Below the pieces are notes generated by a model. It made no database searches. It was not told the origin of the DNA and was given only the letters and a program-made list of their open reading frames with translations. A stretch of 54,611 bases of DNA from Candidatus Nanopelagicales bacterium (lineage in GTDB: Bacteria > Actinomycetota > Actinomycetes > S36-B12), in assembly GCA_009694585.1 (NCBI GenBank), contig SHUQ01000004.1:1-54611 (forward strand), written 5' to 3'. The position numbers and the translations under genes are program-made. Positions 43,104-49,933 of the stretch are shown here, one piece after another. The stretch's first letter is position 1. The number at the start of each line of letters is the position of its first letter.

Positions 43104-43736
43104 ATCAGCGTCGAGCCCCGGATCAATGACCGAATCCGCGTGCCTGAAGTTCGACTTGTCGGACCAAATGGTGAGCAGGTAGGCATCGTTCGCATCGAAG
43201 ATGCGCTGCGATTGGCAGCTGAAGCAGATCTCGACCTAGTCGAGGTGGCGCCAATGTCAAAGCCGCCGGTTTGCAAACTCATGGACTTCGGAAAATTCAA
43301 ATACGAAGCAGCCTTGAAGGAGCGCGAGTCTAGGCGCAACCAAATTCACACCGTCATCAAAGAAATGAAGCTCAGGCCGAAGATTGACCCGCACGATTAC
43401 GAGACTAAAAAGGGTCACGTCGAGCGGTTCCTTAAGGCGGGCGACAAAGTAAAGATCACGATCATGTTCCGCGGTCGTGAGCAAAGTCGCCCTGAAGTTG
43501 GCCTTCGGTTGCTAGCCAAACTTGCAGATGATGTTGAGGATTTAGGTTTTGTTGAGGCGACACCAAAGCAAGATGGACGCAACATGATCATGGTGCTTGC
43601 GCCTGCACGCCGAAAGCCAGATTCTGTGCGACGTGAACCACGTGCAGAATTTGCACTTGAAGGTGTAGCCCAAGCCGAAGCAGTAACTCAAGTGGTGGCT
43701 GAGATTGAAGTAGAACTGGATGTAGCCGAGGCCTAG
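43104..43736 (+). CDS. infC: Translation initiation factor IF-3, probable ATC start codon
   Basis: [32 protein letters not shown]...; in frame from ATC 43104 ([16 protein letters not shown]) with AAGGAG at 43093-43098. The supplied ORF begins at GTG 43140 and lacks the conserved N-terminal residues. Confidence 0.9.
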
Positions 43737-43791
43737 TTGCACCGGTGCTAGCAGTAAGACCAATGTACTTCCCGAGACAAGCGAGGATCAT

Positions 43792-43986
43792 ATGCCGAAG
43801 CAAAAGACACACAGCGGTGCGAAGAAACGATTCAAGATCACTGGCTCAGGAAAGATAACCCACGAGCAGGCGAATCGTCGTCACCTGATGGAAAGTAAGT
43901 CGGCCAAGCGCACTCGTCGCCTTGAGTCCGACCAGGTGGTCGCTCCAGCAGACCGCAAGAGGGTCAAGAAGCTTCTAGGCCGCTAA
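43792..43986 (+). CDS. rpmI: 50S ribosomal protein L35
   Basis: [22 protein letters not shown]...[13 protein letters not shown]. Confidence 0.97.
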
Positions 43987-44028
43987 CCGCTTTCGTCCAA
44001 CTATCCACCTCGTTTTCAGGAGACTGAC

Positions 44029-44391
44029 ATGGCACGTGTTAAACGCGCAGTAAATGCGCACAAGAAGCGTCGCGAGATCCTCGAGCGCGCCAGTGGTTAC
44101 CGTGGGCAGCGCTCACGCTTGTACCGCAAGGCCAAGGAGCAGGTAACTCACTCTCTCGTCTATGCGTACGCGGATCGACGCACGCGCAAAGGTGACTTCC
44201 GCCGCCTTTGGATCCAGCGCATCAACGCCGGCGCCCGCGCCAATGGCATGACCTACAACCGCATGATCCAAGGCCTAAAGGCTGCCGGGGTTGAAGTTGA
44301 CCGCCGCATGCTCGCAGAGCTTGCGGTCAACGATGCACCGGCATTTGCCACGCTCGTCGAGGTTGCTCGCGCTGCAGTGCCTACGTCCTAA
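44029..44391 (+). CDS. rplT: 50S ribosomal protein L20
   Basis: [39 protein letters not shown]...[10 protein letters not shown]. Confidence 0.98.
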
Positions 44392-44397
44392 AAATTC

Positions 44398-45219
44398 GTG
44401 GCACAGGTGGATCTAACTTCTCGGCGGTCGGCAGCGGTCGTCGCGGTCAAACGACTGCACACCAAGGCTGGCCGCAAGGATTCTCAAACTTTCCTCATTG
44501 AGGGTCCACAGGCGTTGCGCGAGGCATTTTCACACCGAGCCGATATCCGCCAGGTGTATGTCACTTCTGATGCCGTGGCACGCTGGGCTGAGATTATGCA
44601 GGCGGCGCGGGCTGCAGAGGTCGAAATCACCATCGTGTCTGACAGCGTGCTTGAGGCGATGGCCGAAACCAAGTCTCCCCAGGGCTGGCTAGCGACATGC
44701 AGGATGGAGATTTCGACACTTGAGGAAATCTTTTCCGCACGGCCCCAGGTATTGGTGGCACTTGATCAGGTATCTGATCCAGGCAATGTAGGCACGATTA
44801 TCCGTACTGCTGATGCAGCAGGTGCTAACGCGGTGCTGCTAACTGGGGAGTCGGTTGACCCTTTCAACGGGAAGTGTGTGCGGGCCAGCGCGGGTTCAAT
44901 ATTTCACCTGCCCGTAGTGCCAGAGTTGAGCGTTGAGCAACTGGTAGCAGTAGCCCGGCAGCAGGGCACGGGAATAGCGGTAACAAGTGCCACGGGCGAA
45001 TGTGACCTATTCGAATGGCTGGATTCGGCTCCTGTGATGAATCCCACGATGTGGGTATTTGGCTCAGAAGCCCACGGAGTGAGCGCGGAATTGTACGAGG
45101 CGGCCGATGTGCGGGTTCGAATCCCAATCCATGGTGCGGCCGAATCTCTAAATATTGCGTCGGCCGTAGCCGTATGTTTGTACGCGGACGTGGACCGTCG
45201 GCGTGCGAGACTTACGTAA
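44398..45219 (+). CDS. TrmH/SpoU-family RNA 2'-O-methyltransferase
   Basis: LVALDQVSDPGNVGTIIRTADAAGANAVLLT, FGSEAHGVS, RIPIHGAAESLNIASAVAVCLY (SPOUT motifs). Confidence 0.92.
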   Translation: MAQVDLTSRRSAAVVAVKRLHTKAGRKDSQTFLIEGPQALREAFSHRADIRQVYVTSDAVARWAEIMQAARAAEVEITIVSDSVLEAMAETKSPQGWLATCRMEISTLEEIFSARPQVLVALDQVSDPGNVGTIIRTADAAGANAVLLTGESVDPFNGKCVRASAGSIFHLPVVPELSVEQLVAVARQQGTGIAVTSATGECDLFEWLDSAPVMNPTMWVFGSEAHGVSAELYEAADVRVRIPIHGAAESLNIASAVAVCLYADVDRRRARLT

Positions 45220-45243: not shown

Positions 45244-46047
45244 ATGACATACGTGAAATTGCCGATTTTTGAGCAGACCGGATATGTCGTGCTGGATTCA
45301 TATGATCAGTTACGTGATTCCCGCGAATGGGAGAACTTGGTATTCGTCGACTGGAAGTCATCAGGTGACACCCGTTTCGCCCCGCTGGCTAGCGCTTATG
45401 GGCAGATGGAGTGCGATGGTTTCTGGAATCACACTCCTGCAAAAACCGACAAAGATGGAGTATGGGTGCCGGAGAATGTGGCGCTCGCCCCTCGACTTAC
45501 TGAACGGGCCCAAGAGCCGGGTGCCAATATCGGCCGGTGCCGAGTTATTGAGCTGCAGCCAAATACGTACGAGGATGCGATTTACAACTTGCACCGTGAT
45601 GACAATAATCGGCTGAATCCCGAAGGTACCGGTTGGATCGTGCGTGCCTTTTGCAATCTGACCGACAACCGCGACTCAGTGATGATTTTGCGGGAAGACA
45701 AGGACGACCCAGCGACCGAAACTCGAATCCCGCTGCCCGCCGGTGCCCAAGTTGTTATCGATACGCAGCGGTTGTATCACGCGGTTTGGCACCCCGGTGA
45801 TGAACCAAGGTATTGCTTGATCACCTCATACGAATCCGGTCCCGAACTTGATGCCTGGATCTCCGCTCGCCACCCGGTAGCTCTGGTGCCATCAGCACCC
45901 GTGGATCCTGACTTTGCCCATCAGGCGTACGCAGCGGCTGATGCCAAGCGGGCGGCACGCGAAGCGGCACTGGCGGCACAAAGTGCCGACCCAACATTTG
46001 GTAACGGCACCTTGCCCCCCACCATGGAGGTGTTGTCCGAAGCATGA
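45244..46047 (+). CDS. Uncharacterised protein, putative Fe(II)/2-oxoglutarate-dependent oxygenase
   Basis: LHRDDNN (HxD) ... [23 protein letters not shown] (distal H followed by R), consistent with a cupin/2OG-oxygenase facial triad. ATG 45244 with GAAGGGG SD preferred over GTG 45223. Confidence 0.6.
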
Positions 46048-46961
46048 CCGATTTAGCGATTCCGTACGCAGCAGTGCTCCACGAGCTTGAAGCCGAAGCA
46101 ATTCATATTTACCGCGAGACCGCAGCAGCATTTCGCAACCCCGTGTTGCTTTACAGCATCGGCAAGGACTCTTCGGTGCTTTTGCATTTAGCCCTGAAGG
46201 CCTTCGCGCCAGCGCCGCTCCCATTCCCAGTCATGCACATCGATACCACCTGGAAGTTCCGCGAGATGATCGAGTTTCGTGATCTTCGCGCACAACAACT
46301 CGGGCTTGATCTACGGATCGCCCAGAACACAGCCGCGATGAACGAAGGGGTTACGCCATTTACGCATGGCACTCATGAGTACACGCGATTGATGAAGACT
46401 GTGGCACTTCGTGAGGGCATTGATAAGTATGGCTTTGACGCTGCAATAGGCGGCGCGCGTCGTGATGAAGAACGTAGTCGCGCTAAGGAGCGGATTTTCA
46501 GCCTTCGTGAACCAGGGCACCGCTGGGATCCGCGTAAGCAGCGACCAGAGTTCTGGCGAACCGCGAATACCACTTTGTCTGAGGGTCAAAGCATGCGAGT
46601 ATTCCCGCTTTCCAACTGGACCGAACTTGATGTTTGGCGATATATAGAACGTGAAGATATTCCGATTCCATCGCTGTACCTCGCCAAACCACGACCAGTT
46701 GTGGAGCGCGAAGGCGTCTTGATCATGGTCGATGACGAGAGGTTCCCGCTGCGCCCAGGAGAGCAAGCACAAATGAGATCCGTGCGTTTTCGAACCCTTG
46801 GCTGCTATCCACTAAGTGGTGCGGTGGAGTCCACGGCTGACACCATTGCCGACCTAATCGCCGAGATGGAGTCGTCCAATGTCTCTGAGCGTGCAGGTAG
46901 GTTGATCGACGGTGATGGCGGCAGTTCGATGGAGTCCAAGAAAGCTGAGGGTTACTTCTGA
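46044..46961 (+). CDS. cysD: Sulfate adenylyltransferase small subunit
   Basis: [22 protein letters not shown]-loop, [61 protein letters not shown]. Confidence 0.95.
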
Positions 46962-48808
46962 TGTCTACCTCGCTAACGCCGGTGTTGCATCTTGTTACCT
47001 GTGGCTCCGTGGATGACGGTAAGTCGACCCTCATTGGTCGATTACTCGCCGAAACTGGCAGTGTGCCAAGTGATCAACTTGAGTACGCTCGCCAAACCCG
47101 CCGCGGCGGCTCGACTATTCCGGTTGGCGAGATTGATTTCTCGCTATTGACCGATGGCCTAGAAGCCGAGCGCGAACAGGGCATAACCATCGACGTTGCA
47201 TACCGGCACATGAATTTGCCGAATGGACGGCGGGTGCTTATCGCGGACGCCCCAGGCCACGAGCAGTACACCCGCAATATGGCAGTAGCCGCTTCGAACG
47301 GAGATGTCGCGGTGTTACTAGTTGACGCAGCGCGTGGGGTGCGCAAGCAAACACATCGGCATTTGACCGTCTGTGCCTTGATGGGCGTTAAAACGGTGGT
47401 GATTGCCGTAAACAAGATGGACCTAATTGACTATGACTGCGACACATTTGAAATATTGGTTGCGGAAATTACAGCCACTGCGTCTCGCCTCGGGGTACCC
47501 CAGGTCGTCGCAATCCCAATGAGCGCTTTCGCTGGCGAAAACGTTACGGCGGCGGCAACCACCATGCCTTGGTACCAAGGCCCCCACCTATTGGAGTTTT
47601 TGTCGGCGTGGGTGCCCATCGCTGACACCACAGCCTCACCATTTCGATTCCCGGTTCAGTTTGTAGTTCGCGCCGAAGGCAACTTTCGCGGCTACGCCGG
47701 AACGGTAGTGGCCGGTGAAATCGCACCCGGTGATGAGATCACCGTCGCCGATTCAGGCCGCACGGCGATTATCGATCGCATTGTTACTTATGAAAAAGAC
47801 TTGTCGAAGGCCGTGGCCGGACAAGCGGTTACCTTGACTCTCGATCATGAGGTTGATGTAACTCGCGGTGACCTTCTAGCCGCGAGCGGGGCAGGTTTGG
47901 TGCAGCCCGCCGACCGCTTTGGCGCGGACCTTGTCTGGCTTAGTGAAGAGCCACTGGCCCACGGCCGCTCCTACCTGCTGGTTTCGGGTTCAAGGTCAGT
48001 GCCAGCCACAGTAACCAGCGTTCGGTTCCAACTAGATGTTGAATCTGGTTTTGAGCATGCAGCCAGACTGCTCAATATGAACGATATCGGGCGTGTTGAG
48101 ATTGCGACCGATAAGCCGATCCCGATGGATCCATATGCGCTATGCCGAGATACCGGCGGTTTTTTGCTGGTTGACCGGGTGACCGCCGACACCGTCGCTG
48201 CGGGTTTGGTGCGGCATGTGATGCGACGAGCTTTCAATGTGGTACCGCATACCTATGACGTTGATCGCGAGGCGCGAGTTCGATTGATGGGTCATTCGGG
48301 CAAGGTGATCTGGCTAACCGGACTGCCCGGTTCAGGTAAGTCCACGATTGCTGATGCAGCGGTGGTGCGGCTGCACGCGATGGGCGTTCACACCTATGTG
48401 CTTGACGGTGACAACGTGCGCACCGGGTTGAATAAGGATCTTGGGTTCACTCCAGAGGACCGAGCCGAGAATGTGCGTCGGGTTGCTGAAGTTGGCAAAT
48501 TGATGAGCGATGCGGGTTTAGTTGTACTGGTGGCTCTTGTGTCGCCTTATCGCGGGGATCGGGCGGCAGCGCGCGAGCTGTTTTCCGCAGGGGATTTCCT
48601 TGAAGTTTATGTTGACACTCCCGTTGAGGTATGTGCTGAACGCGATCCCAAGGGCCTTTATGCCAAGGCGGCTGCTGGAAACCTACCCAATATGACCGGT
48701 CGCGGTCAGGCCTACCAGGTACCGGAGCATCCTGACCTGATTTTGCACGGAACTGGAGATCTTGACGCCACGGTGGAGCAATTGGCCAAGGCGATCCTCG
48801 GCGAGTGA
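46961..48808 (+). CDS. cysNC: Bifunctional sulfate adenylyltransferase large subunit / adenylylsulfate kinase
   Basis: CysN GTPase motifs (TCGSVDDGKSTLIGRLL, DAPGHEQYTRNM, NKMDLID) fused to an APS kinase domain (WLTGLPGSGKSTIAD, LDGDNVRTGLNKDLGFTPEDRAENVRRVAEVGKLM). Confidence 0.94.
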   Translation: MSTSLTPVLHLVTCGSVDDGKSTLIGRLLAETGSVPSDQLEYARQTRRGGSTIPVGEIDFSLLTDGLEAEREQGITIDVAYRHMNLPNGRRVLIADAPGHEQYTRNMAVAASNGDVAVLLVDAARGVRKQTHRHLTVCALMGVKTVVIAVNKMDLIDYDCDTFEILVAEITATASRLGVPQVVAIPMSAFAGENVTAAATTMPWYQGPHLLEFLSAWVPIADTTASPFRFPVQFVVRAEGNFRGYAGTVVAGEIAPGDEITVADSGRTAIIDRIVTYEKDLSKAVAGQAVTLTLDHEVDVTRGDLLAASGAGLVQPADRFGADLVWLSEEPLAHGRSYLLVSGSRSVPATVTSVRFQLDVESGFEHAARLLNMNDIGRVEIATDKPIPMDPYALCRDTGGFLLVDRVTADTVAAGLVRHVMRRAFNVVPHTYDVDREARVRLMGHSGKVIWLTGLPGSGKSTIADAAVVRLHAMGVHTYVLDGDNVRTGLNKDLGFTPEDRAENVRRVAEVGKLMSDAGLVVLVALVSPYRGDRAAARELFSAGDFLEVYVDTPVEVCAERDPKGLYAKAAAGNLPNMTGRGQAYQVPEHPDLILHGTGDLDATVEQLAKAILGE

Positions 48809-48823
48809 GATACTGCCGACCTG

Positions 48824-49933
48824 ATGTCTGGACCTAATACCTCCTTTGACCCTAAGCAGGTCGCTGTGCTGAGCGCCGAGGCCATCACCGCCATGGTCGC
48901 CACGGCCCGCGCGGCGGTGGTGGCTGCCGCTGATCTGGCCCAGTTAAAAGAGGTCCGGTTGGCGCACCTTGGTGATCGCTCCCCACTCGCCCTGGCTAAC
49001 CGCGATATTGGCGCCTTGCCGCCAGCGGCAAAAGCCGAGGTTGGCAAGCGGGTTGGTGAGGCTAGGGCGGCGGTCAAAGCGGCCCTTGATTCGCGCCAGA
49101 TCGAACTCGAACAAGCTCGTGATGAATTCGTACTCGCTGAGGAGTGCGTTGACGTCACCTTACCGGCGGCGCGTTCGCCGCTGGGTGCTCGGCATCCGCT
49201 CACTACCGTGATGGAGAGAATTTGCGATATCTTTGTCGCAATGGGTTACGACATCGCCGAAGGCCCAGAGGTAGAGGCCGAATGGGTAAACTTTGATGCG
49301 CTAAATGTGCCACCAGACCACCCGGCGCGCACTATGCAAGACACCTTCTACGTAACTTCATCAGAAAGTGGGGTGGTCTTACGAACCCAAACCTCCCCAA
49401 TTCAAATTCGCGCGATGCTAGATCGGCAACTACCTATCTATGTTGTTGCCCCCGGCCGGGTGTATCGCACCGATGAACTTGACGCCACCCATACTCCAGT
49501 TTTTCATCAGGTTGAAGGTCTTGCGGTTGACGAAGGGTTGACCATGGGGGACCTAAAGGGCACCCTTGACCACTTCGCCCAAGAAATGTTCGGGCCAGGC
49601 ATTGTGACCCGCCTCCGTCCTTCGTATTTTCCCTTCACCGAGCCAAGCGCGGAACTTGATGTTCAGTGTTTTGTGTGTCTTGGTGTCTCGGTTGATAATC
49701 CAGATGTGCCATGCCGCACCTGCGGTAGCGAGGGCTGGATCGAATGGGGCGGCTGCGGCATGGTCAATCCACGAGTTTTGCAGGCGGTCGGCATTGACTC
49801 GTCTAAGTACCGTGGTTTCGCATTCGGAATGGGAATTGAACGCACTCTAATGTTCCGAAACGGCGTAACAGATATGCGCGACATGGTCGAGGGCGATGTG
49901 CGGTTCTCTTTGGCTTTCGGCTTGGAGTCTTGA
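48824..49933 (+). CDS. pheS: Phenylalanyl-tRNA synthetase alpha subunit
   Basis: [79 protein letters not shown]. Confidence 0.97.

Follow-up and report, generated by a model that had tools for sequence, protein, structure and literature searches.

The sulfate-activating complex of Mycobacterium tuberculosis, composed of CysD and CysNC, makes APS and PAPS (PMC4373884, PMC3141025). Like the gene pair described here, it combines a two-gene ATP sulfurylase with a fused APS kinase. The M. tuberculosis complex stands at a branch point with a reductive arm, whereas most of the family examined here (f1) lacks that arm, and the present pair differs further in that it follows an oxygenase gene within a putative pheST operon. 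The closest described counterparts of this oxygenase, referred to below as OXY, are the Asp/Asn beta-hydroxylase family (PF05118) and L-proline cis-4-hydroxylase (PDB 4p7w), which share with it a double-stranded beta-helix and an HxD...HX10R motif. Unlike these proteins, OXY has an additional C-terminal linker with an invariant Ser-Glu-Ala (SEA) end. TauD and AtsK (PF02668), dioxygenases of sulfonates and sulfate esters, belong to the same superfamily and follow the same cofactor logic, but the OXY of the window has no match to PF02668. The window, the whole 54,611-nt stretch that was analyzed, is contig C39 of the Nanopelagicales genome G000 (1.69 Mb, 84% complete), the family and genus of which are labeled f1 and g1, respectively.

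Organization of the locus

All genes of the region lie on the forward strand. The infC ... rplT block (positions 43140 to 44391), identified from its open reading frames (ORFs) and found in identical order in relatives, is upstream of OXY, and it is followed by a gene for a SpoU-family RNA 2'-O-methyltransferase (44398 to 45219; PF00588, 129 bits). OXY (45244 to 46047; 267 amino acids) begins 24 nt past the methyltransferase stop with an ATG codon preceded by a Shine-Dalgarno-like AGAAGG. Next are cysD (46044 to 46961), encoding a 305-amino-acid ATP sulfurylase small subunit, and cysNC (46961 to 48808), encoding a 615-amino-acid ATP sulfurylase GTPase subunit fused to a PAPS-forming APS kinase. 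pheS, a conserved neighbor (48824 to 49933), starts 15 nt downstream of cysNC. The ORF coordinates confirmed two features reported in the first-pass annotation: OXY overlaps cysD by 4 nt (ATGA) and cysD overlaps cysNC by 1 nt (TGATG), and the three genes sit as a cassette between the rplT/SpoU methyltransferase block and pheST. Promoter- and terminator-like sites across the region were at chance level, and the arrangement is consistent with a single operon. A viral origin was considered and rejected, there being no match to phage or viral contigs. A literature search found no paper on the OXY-cysD gene pair.

OXY is a predicted 2-oxoglutarate oxygenase

In profile searches, OXY scored 16.4 bits against PF05118, below the curated cut-off of 22.6, and the same profile weakly matched 27 of 41 OXY family members (best E value, 7.9e-5). 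No match was found in NCBIfam or PHROGs, and single-sequence and profile searches against the sequences of solved structures returned nothing useful. An AlphaFold2 model built from 41 homologues had a mean pLDDT of 82.7. When compared with the PDB using Foldseek, the 50 best matches to this model were all 2-oxoglutarate (2OG) oxygenases with a double-stranded beta-helix. The best was 4p7w (E value, 6.7e-7), and proline 3-hydroxylase and human Asp beta-hydroxylase were also among the matches. Identity to the solved structures was 12 to 18%, and the TM-scores on the query, 0.34 to 0.49, were modest, so that the fold class can be taken as secure but not the subfamily assignment.

The sequence motifs agree with the fold. 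Residues H117, D119, D120, N121, N122, R123, H179, and R189 never varied among 129 homologues drawn from Nanopelagicales and from other classes of actinobacteria, and 43 positions of the core were at least 98% identical. H117-R118-D119 (45592 to 45600) forms the HxD that opens an HxDDNNR motif; H117 and D119, together with the distal histidine H179 (45778 to 45780), are predicted to bind iron, and R189 (45808 to 45810), the arginine of HX10R, is predicted to bind 2OG. The 2OG-oxygenase double-stranded beta-helix with HxD...H...R that had been proposed from the sequence was thus borne out, and by modeled fold and motif, OXY is a predicted 2OG/Fe(II) oxygenase. By sequence, it appears nearest to the Asp/Asn beta-hydroxylase family, yet it falls under the cut-off of that family. 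The accompanying comparison with TauD/AtsK failed at the family level: PF02668 was touched by 1 of 41 members, at an E value of 0.14.

Distribution of OXY and history of the locus

Of 59 genomes, comprising that of the window and relatives from its order, 50 contained OXY, as did 19 of 396 genomes sampled over the phylum and 546 stretches of the genome collection. In a tree of 99 members, subfamily A, which includes the OXY of the window, was separate from a paralogous subfamily B. A and B together formed one clade, distinct from the homologues of other classes, and a few Microbacteriaceae-type proteins joined A. Six loci (L025, L026, L043, L044, L104, and L113) carry OXY-B and OXY-A in tandem between the SpoU methyltransferase gene and pheS; outside such tandem loci, B is scattered over the genome. 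Some public MAG records titled Bifidobacterium breve (L057, L061, L073, L087, and L103) or Acidobacteria (L110) hold Nanopelagicales-type loci, and their names look wrong.

In f1, the order infC-rplT-SpoU-OXY-cysD-cysNC-pheS-pheT was found in every spanning locus, save for an insert in a few. The segment from SpoU to pheS recurs in dozens of independent assemblies, and therefore the order is not a product of chance or assembly. A conserved OXY-cysD linkage, one of the checks proposed in the first-pass annotation, holds wherever an f1 locus could be read through the two genes. Families f2, f3, f5, and f7 lack cysD at the site, where their order is SpoU-OXY-pheS or SpoU-OXY(B)-OXY(A)-pheS. The overlap between OXY and cysD is itself restricted to the genus of the window and a few other genera, and elsewhere in f1 the gap is about 18 to 127 nt. 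In f4 and f6, pheS directly follows SpoU in the loci that reach it. The presence of this direct SpoU-pheS junction in related families supports the earlier suggestion that the cassette is an insertion. The simplest history suggested by these gene orders is one of two successive insertions, OXY and then cysD-cysNC, although the other families may instead have undergone loss. For genome G003, joint loss of OXY and cysD was considered and rejected; pheS is gone from it too, which makes a gap in the assembly the likely cause. In one distant genus of actinobacteria with small genomes (f60; L220 and L224, two genomes), an iron alcohol dehydrogenase gene lies between OXY and a divergent cysH and cysD-cysN set.

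The C-terminal tail of OXY

The most unusual feature of OXY is its invariant C-terminal tail. Ser-Glu-Ala-stop (46036 to 46047 in the window, the final bases overlapping the cysD start) ends 108 of 112 distinct proteins of the A/B clade. Members of this clade, mostly 248 to 290 amino acids long, consist of the core, then a linker of variable length, and then SEA. The exceptions number four: a B protein whose last residues are DEA, and three proteins that either come from Microbacteriaceae or group with them. L, M, or Y occupies position -4, position -5 is mostly V, and conservation collapses further in. The tail is disordered in the AlphaFold2 model (pLDDT below 50), and 17 homologues in other classes stop soon after the core, with no SEA. 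Because the SEA serine uses six codons and the stop uses all three, selection acts at the protein level. Two other explanations were considered and rejected. First, SEA is not a by-product of the cysD overlap, as it is present, with varied synonymous codons, in unlinked paralogues. Second, no shared tag was evident: in a search of G000 that covered TCN serine codons with TAA or TGA stops, the pattern TCN-GAR-GCN plus stop occurred three times, and only the OXY copy ends a listed ORF of at least 60 amino acids.

Sulfate activation, sulfate reduction, and sulfotransferases

CysD of the window is an NCBIfam equivalog match (NF009214, 478 bits against a cut-off of 413; TIGR02039, 468 bits), and CysNC matches the bifunctional CysN/APS-kinase model NF004035 (774 bits against 715), with PF01583 at residues 447 to 595. 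The CysD, CysN, and APS kinase domains are full length. These model matches agree with the first-pass reading of the pair as an APS-then-PAPS set.

The reductive branch was sought in 59 genomes using PF01507, which detects CysD and CysH, and NIR_SIR profiles. In most f1 genomes, the single PF01507 protein was CysD. NIR_SIR had no match in 28 of 35 f1 genomes, among them all 10 of g1, three of which are 95 to 96% complete; among the 34 usable f1 genomes, that is, those whose assembly holds the locus, it was absent from 27. In the other seven, where sulfite reductase is present, CysD-CysNC may also serve assimilation. CysD itself was found in nine of the 10 g1 genomes, the tenth being G003. Another g1 genome, G006, has a second PF01507 protein and no sulfite reductase. 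A distinct arrangement was seen in G056, in which a CysD-CysH-sulfite reductase set lies on contig C31, separate from a CysNC-type CysD on C64. In G000 itself, at 84% completeness, neither CysH nor sulfite reductase was found and no sulfate transporter was identified. A high-scoring "sulfate permease" on its contig C37 was below the cut-off; it follows a ModA-like binding protein, as read from the sequence, and is therefore probably for molybdate.

Sulfotransferases, by comparison, were common in searches with PF13469 and PF00685, which represent broad families. At least one was found in each of the 27 usable f1 genomes lacking sulfite reductase, with G020 counted on a match right at the cut-off. 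Only G034 among these f1 genomes had none, and it has sulfite reductase. When 58 genomes were compared, with kinship ignored, CysNC-type CysD was associated with sulfotransferases (40 of 49 versus 1 of 9; Fisher P = 9.6e-5); outside f1, the trend was not significant (P = 0.18). G000 has two, at C19:193-882 and C14:29776-30579, well above the Pfam cut-offs. Its PF00685 protein contains SYPKSGNTW and its PF13469 protein GTGRSGST, which are PAPS-binding loop motifs. Of the genes that the first-pass annotation had proposed to look for across the genome, cysH and sir were not found, sulfotransferases are present, and no sulfate transporter was identified. A 405-amino-acid gene product encoded beside cysD in L234 looked sulfotransferase-like by eye but had no Pfam match.

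The C14 sulfotransferase is a plausible PAPS user. It carries a C-terminal PqqD domain and is encoded in a cluster (L229:1704-14982; about 21.7 to 35 kb of C14) that adjoins rpsL and includes genes for two PatA/PatG-type proteases, a SagB-type dehydrogenase, a divergent YcaO/SagD-type cyclodehydratase, and an MFS transporter. The same peptide-maturation cluster was found next to rpsL in four other g1 members read at length and, in part, in two more. Its product could possibly be a sulfated ribosomal peptide.

DISCUSSION

Considering the observed fold and invariant motifs of OXY, the gene order, and the patterns of presence and absence, the reading we favor, at a probability of roughly two in three, is that two units share one operon. 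CysD-CysNC would turn sulfate into APS and then PAPS. With the reductive branch (CysH and sulfite reductase) mostly missing in the lineage, the PAPS would most likely be consumed by sulfotransferases, among them the PqqD-fused enzyme of the peptide-maturation cluster. OXY most likely works without any tie to PAPS, hydroxylating the side chain of an amino acid, peptide, or protein. It would have been the first to settle between the SpoU methyltransferase gene and pheS, often together with its tandem paralogue B; cysD-cysNC would have been placed downstream later, in the f1 ancestor, and the genes would then have closed up to overlap in the genus of the window. Against the independence of OXY, the adjacency kept throughout f1 and the overlap in several genera would also be expected of a functional pair.

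That OXY works in the PAPS pathway, either hydroxylating a substrate ahead of its sulfation or acting on a sulfonate or sulfate ester to free the sulfate that CysD uses, is what the first-pass annotation had proposed, and it appears unlikely. The overlapping genes, the unbroken adjacency in readable f1 loci, the f60 genus in which OXY lies ~2.1 kb from cysH and cysD-cysN, and a weak association between OXY and sulfotransferases over all 58 genomes (P = 0.014) speak for it. However, several findings point the other way. First, the overall association with sulfotransferases comes from one lineage, f1, because outside it OXY was associated neither with CysNC-type CysD nor with sulfotransferases (Fisher P = 1.0 each). 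Second, each unit occurs without the other. Six genomes have OXY without CysNC-type CysD (G035, G036, G039, G044, G045, and G053), three of them (G035, G039, and G044) without any PF01507 protein, and six others have CysD-CysNC without OXY (G037, G042, G043, G046, G050, and G058). Third, four other families have OXY at the identical site without cysD, whereas f4 has CysD-CysNC and sulfotransferases yet almost no OXY. Finally, OXY is not a TauD/AtsK relative. The proposed pathway role is thus unsupported, and the coupling of OXY to PAPS genes most likely reflects the history of the neighborhood, although OXY may have a role in sulfation confined to f1.

A link to translation, with OXY hydroxylating a ribosomal protein, translation factor, or tRNA, coexpressed with rplT, SpoU, and pheST, and cysD-cysNC as bystanders, is a doubtful alternative. 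It would account for the position of OXY within the rplT-SpoU-pheST block in f1, f2, f3, f5, and f7, for the prolyl and Asp beta-hydroxylases among the closest folds, and for the very conserved core. Yet OXY is missing from most f4 and f6 genomes, and in other taxa it adjoins genes for an ABC-F-like ATPase, fatty-acid synthesis, a Stealth protein, or a GmrSD endonuclease. In Herbiconiux (L133:4185-5813), it and a Stealth-family (capsule phosphotransferase-type) gene are divergently oriented. Just as doubtful is a more specific idea, that OXY and B form an undescribed actinobacterial family in which the SEA tail, borne on a variable and disordered linker, is a docking or self-inserting control motif and that, in f1, the neighboring CysD-CysNC supplies PAPS for sulfation of an acceptor that OXY has first hydroxylated. 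Ordinary assimilation, with cysH and sir merely lost to incomplete assemblies, could draw on the status of these genomes as MAGs and on the seven f1 genomes with sulfite reductase, but it is very improbable given the absence of that enzyme throughout g1 and in most of f1, the ready detection of CysH and sulfite reductase by identical searches in f3, f4, and some f7 genomes, and the published complete acI genomes of this order, which lack assimilatory sulfate reduction (PMC5301498).

As the first-pass annotation had surmised, then, the PAPS machinery is probably not for ordinary assimilation, given the lack of sulfite reductase in g1 and of CysH in G000 and the presence of sulfotransferases. 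Nanopelagicales, which are among the commonest bacteria of lakes, have been characterized as lacking assimilatory sulfate reduction. From the retention of PAPS synthesis alongside sulfotransferases in one of their families, sulfated products are predicted for organisms believed to require reduced sulfur alone. OXY, for its part, represents a widespread, strongly conserved, and apparently uncharacterized oxygenase family with an odd, invariant tail.
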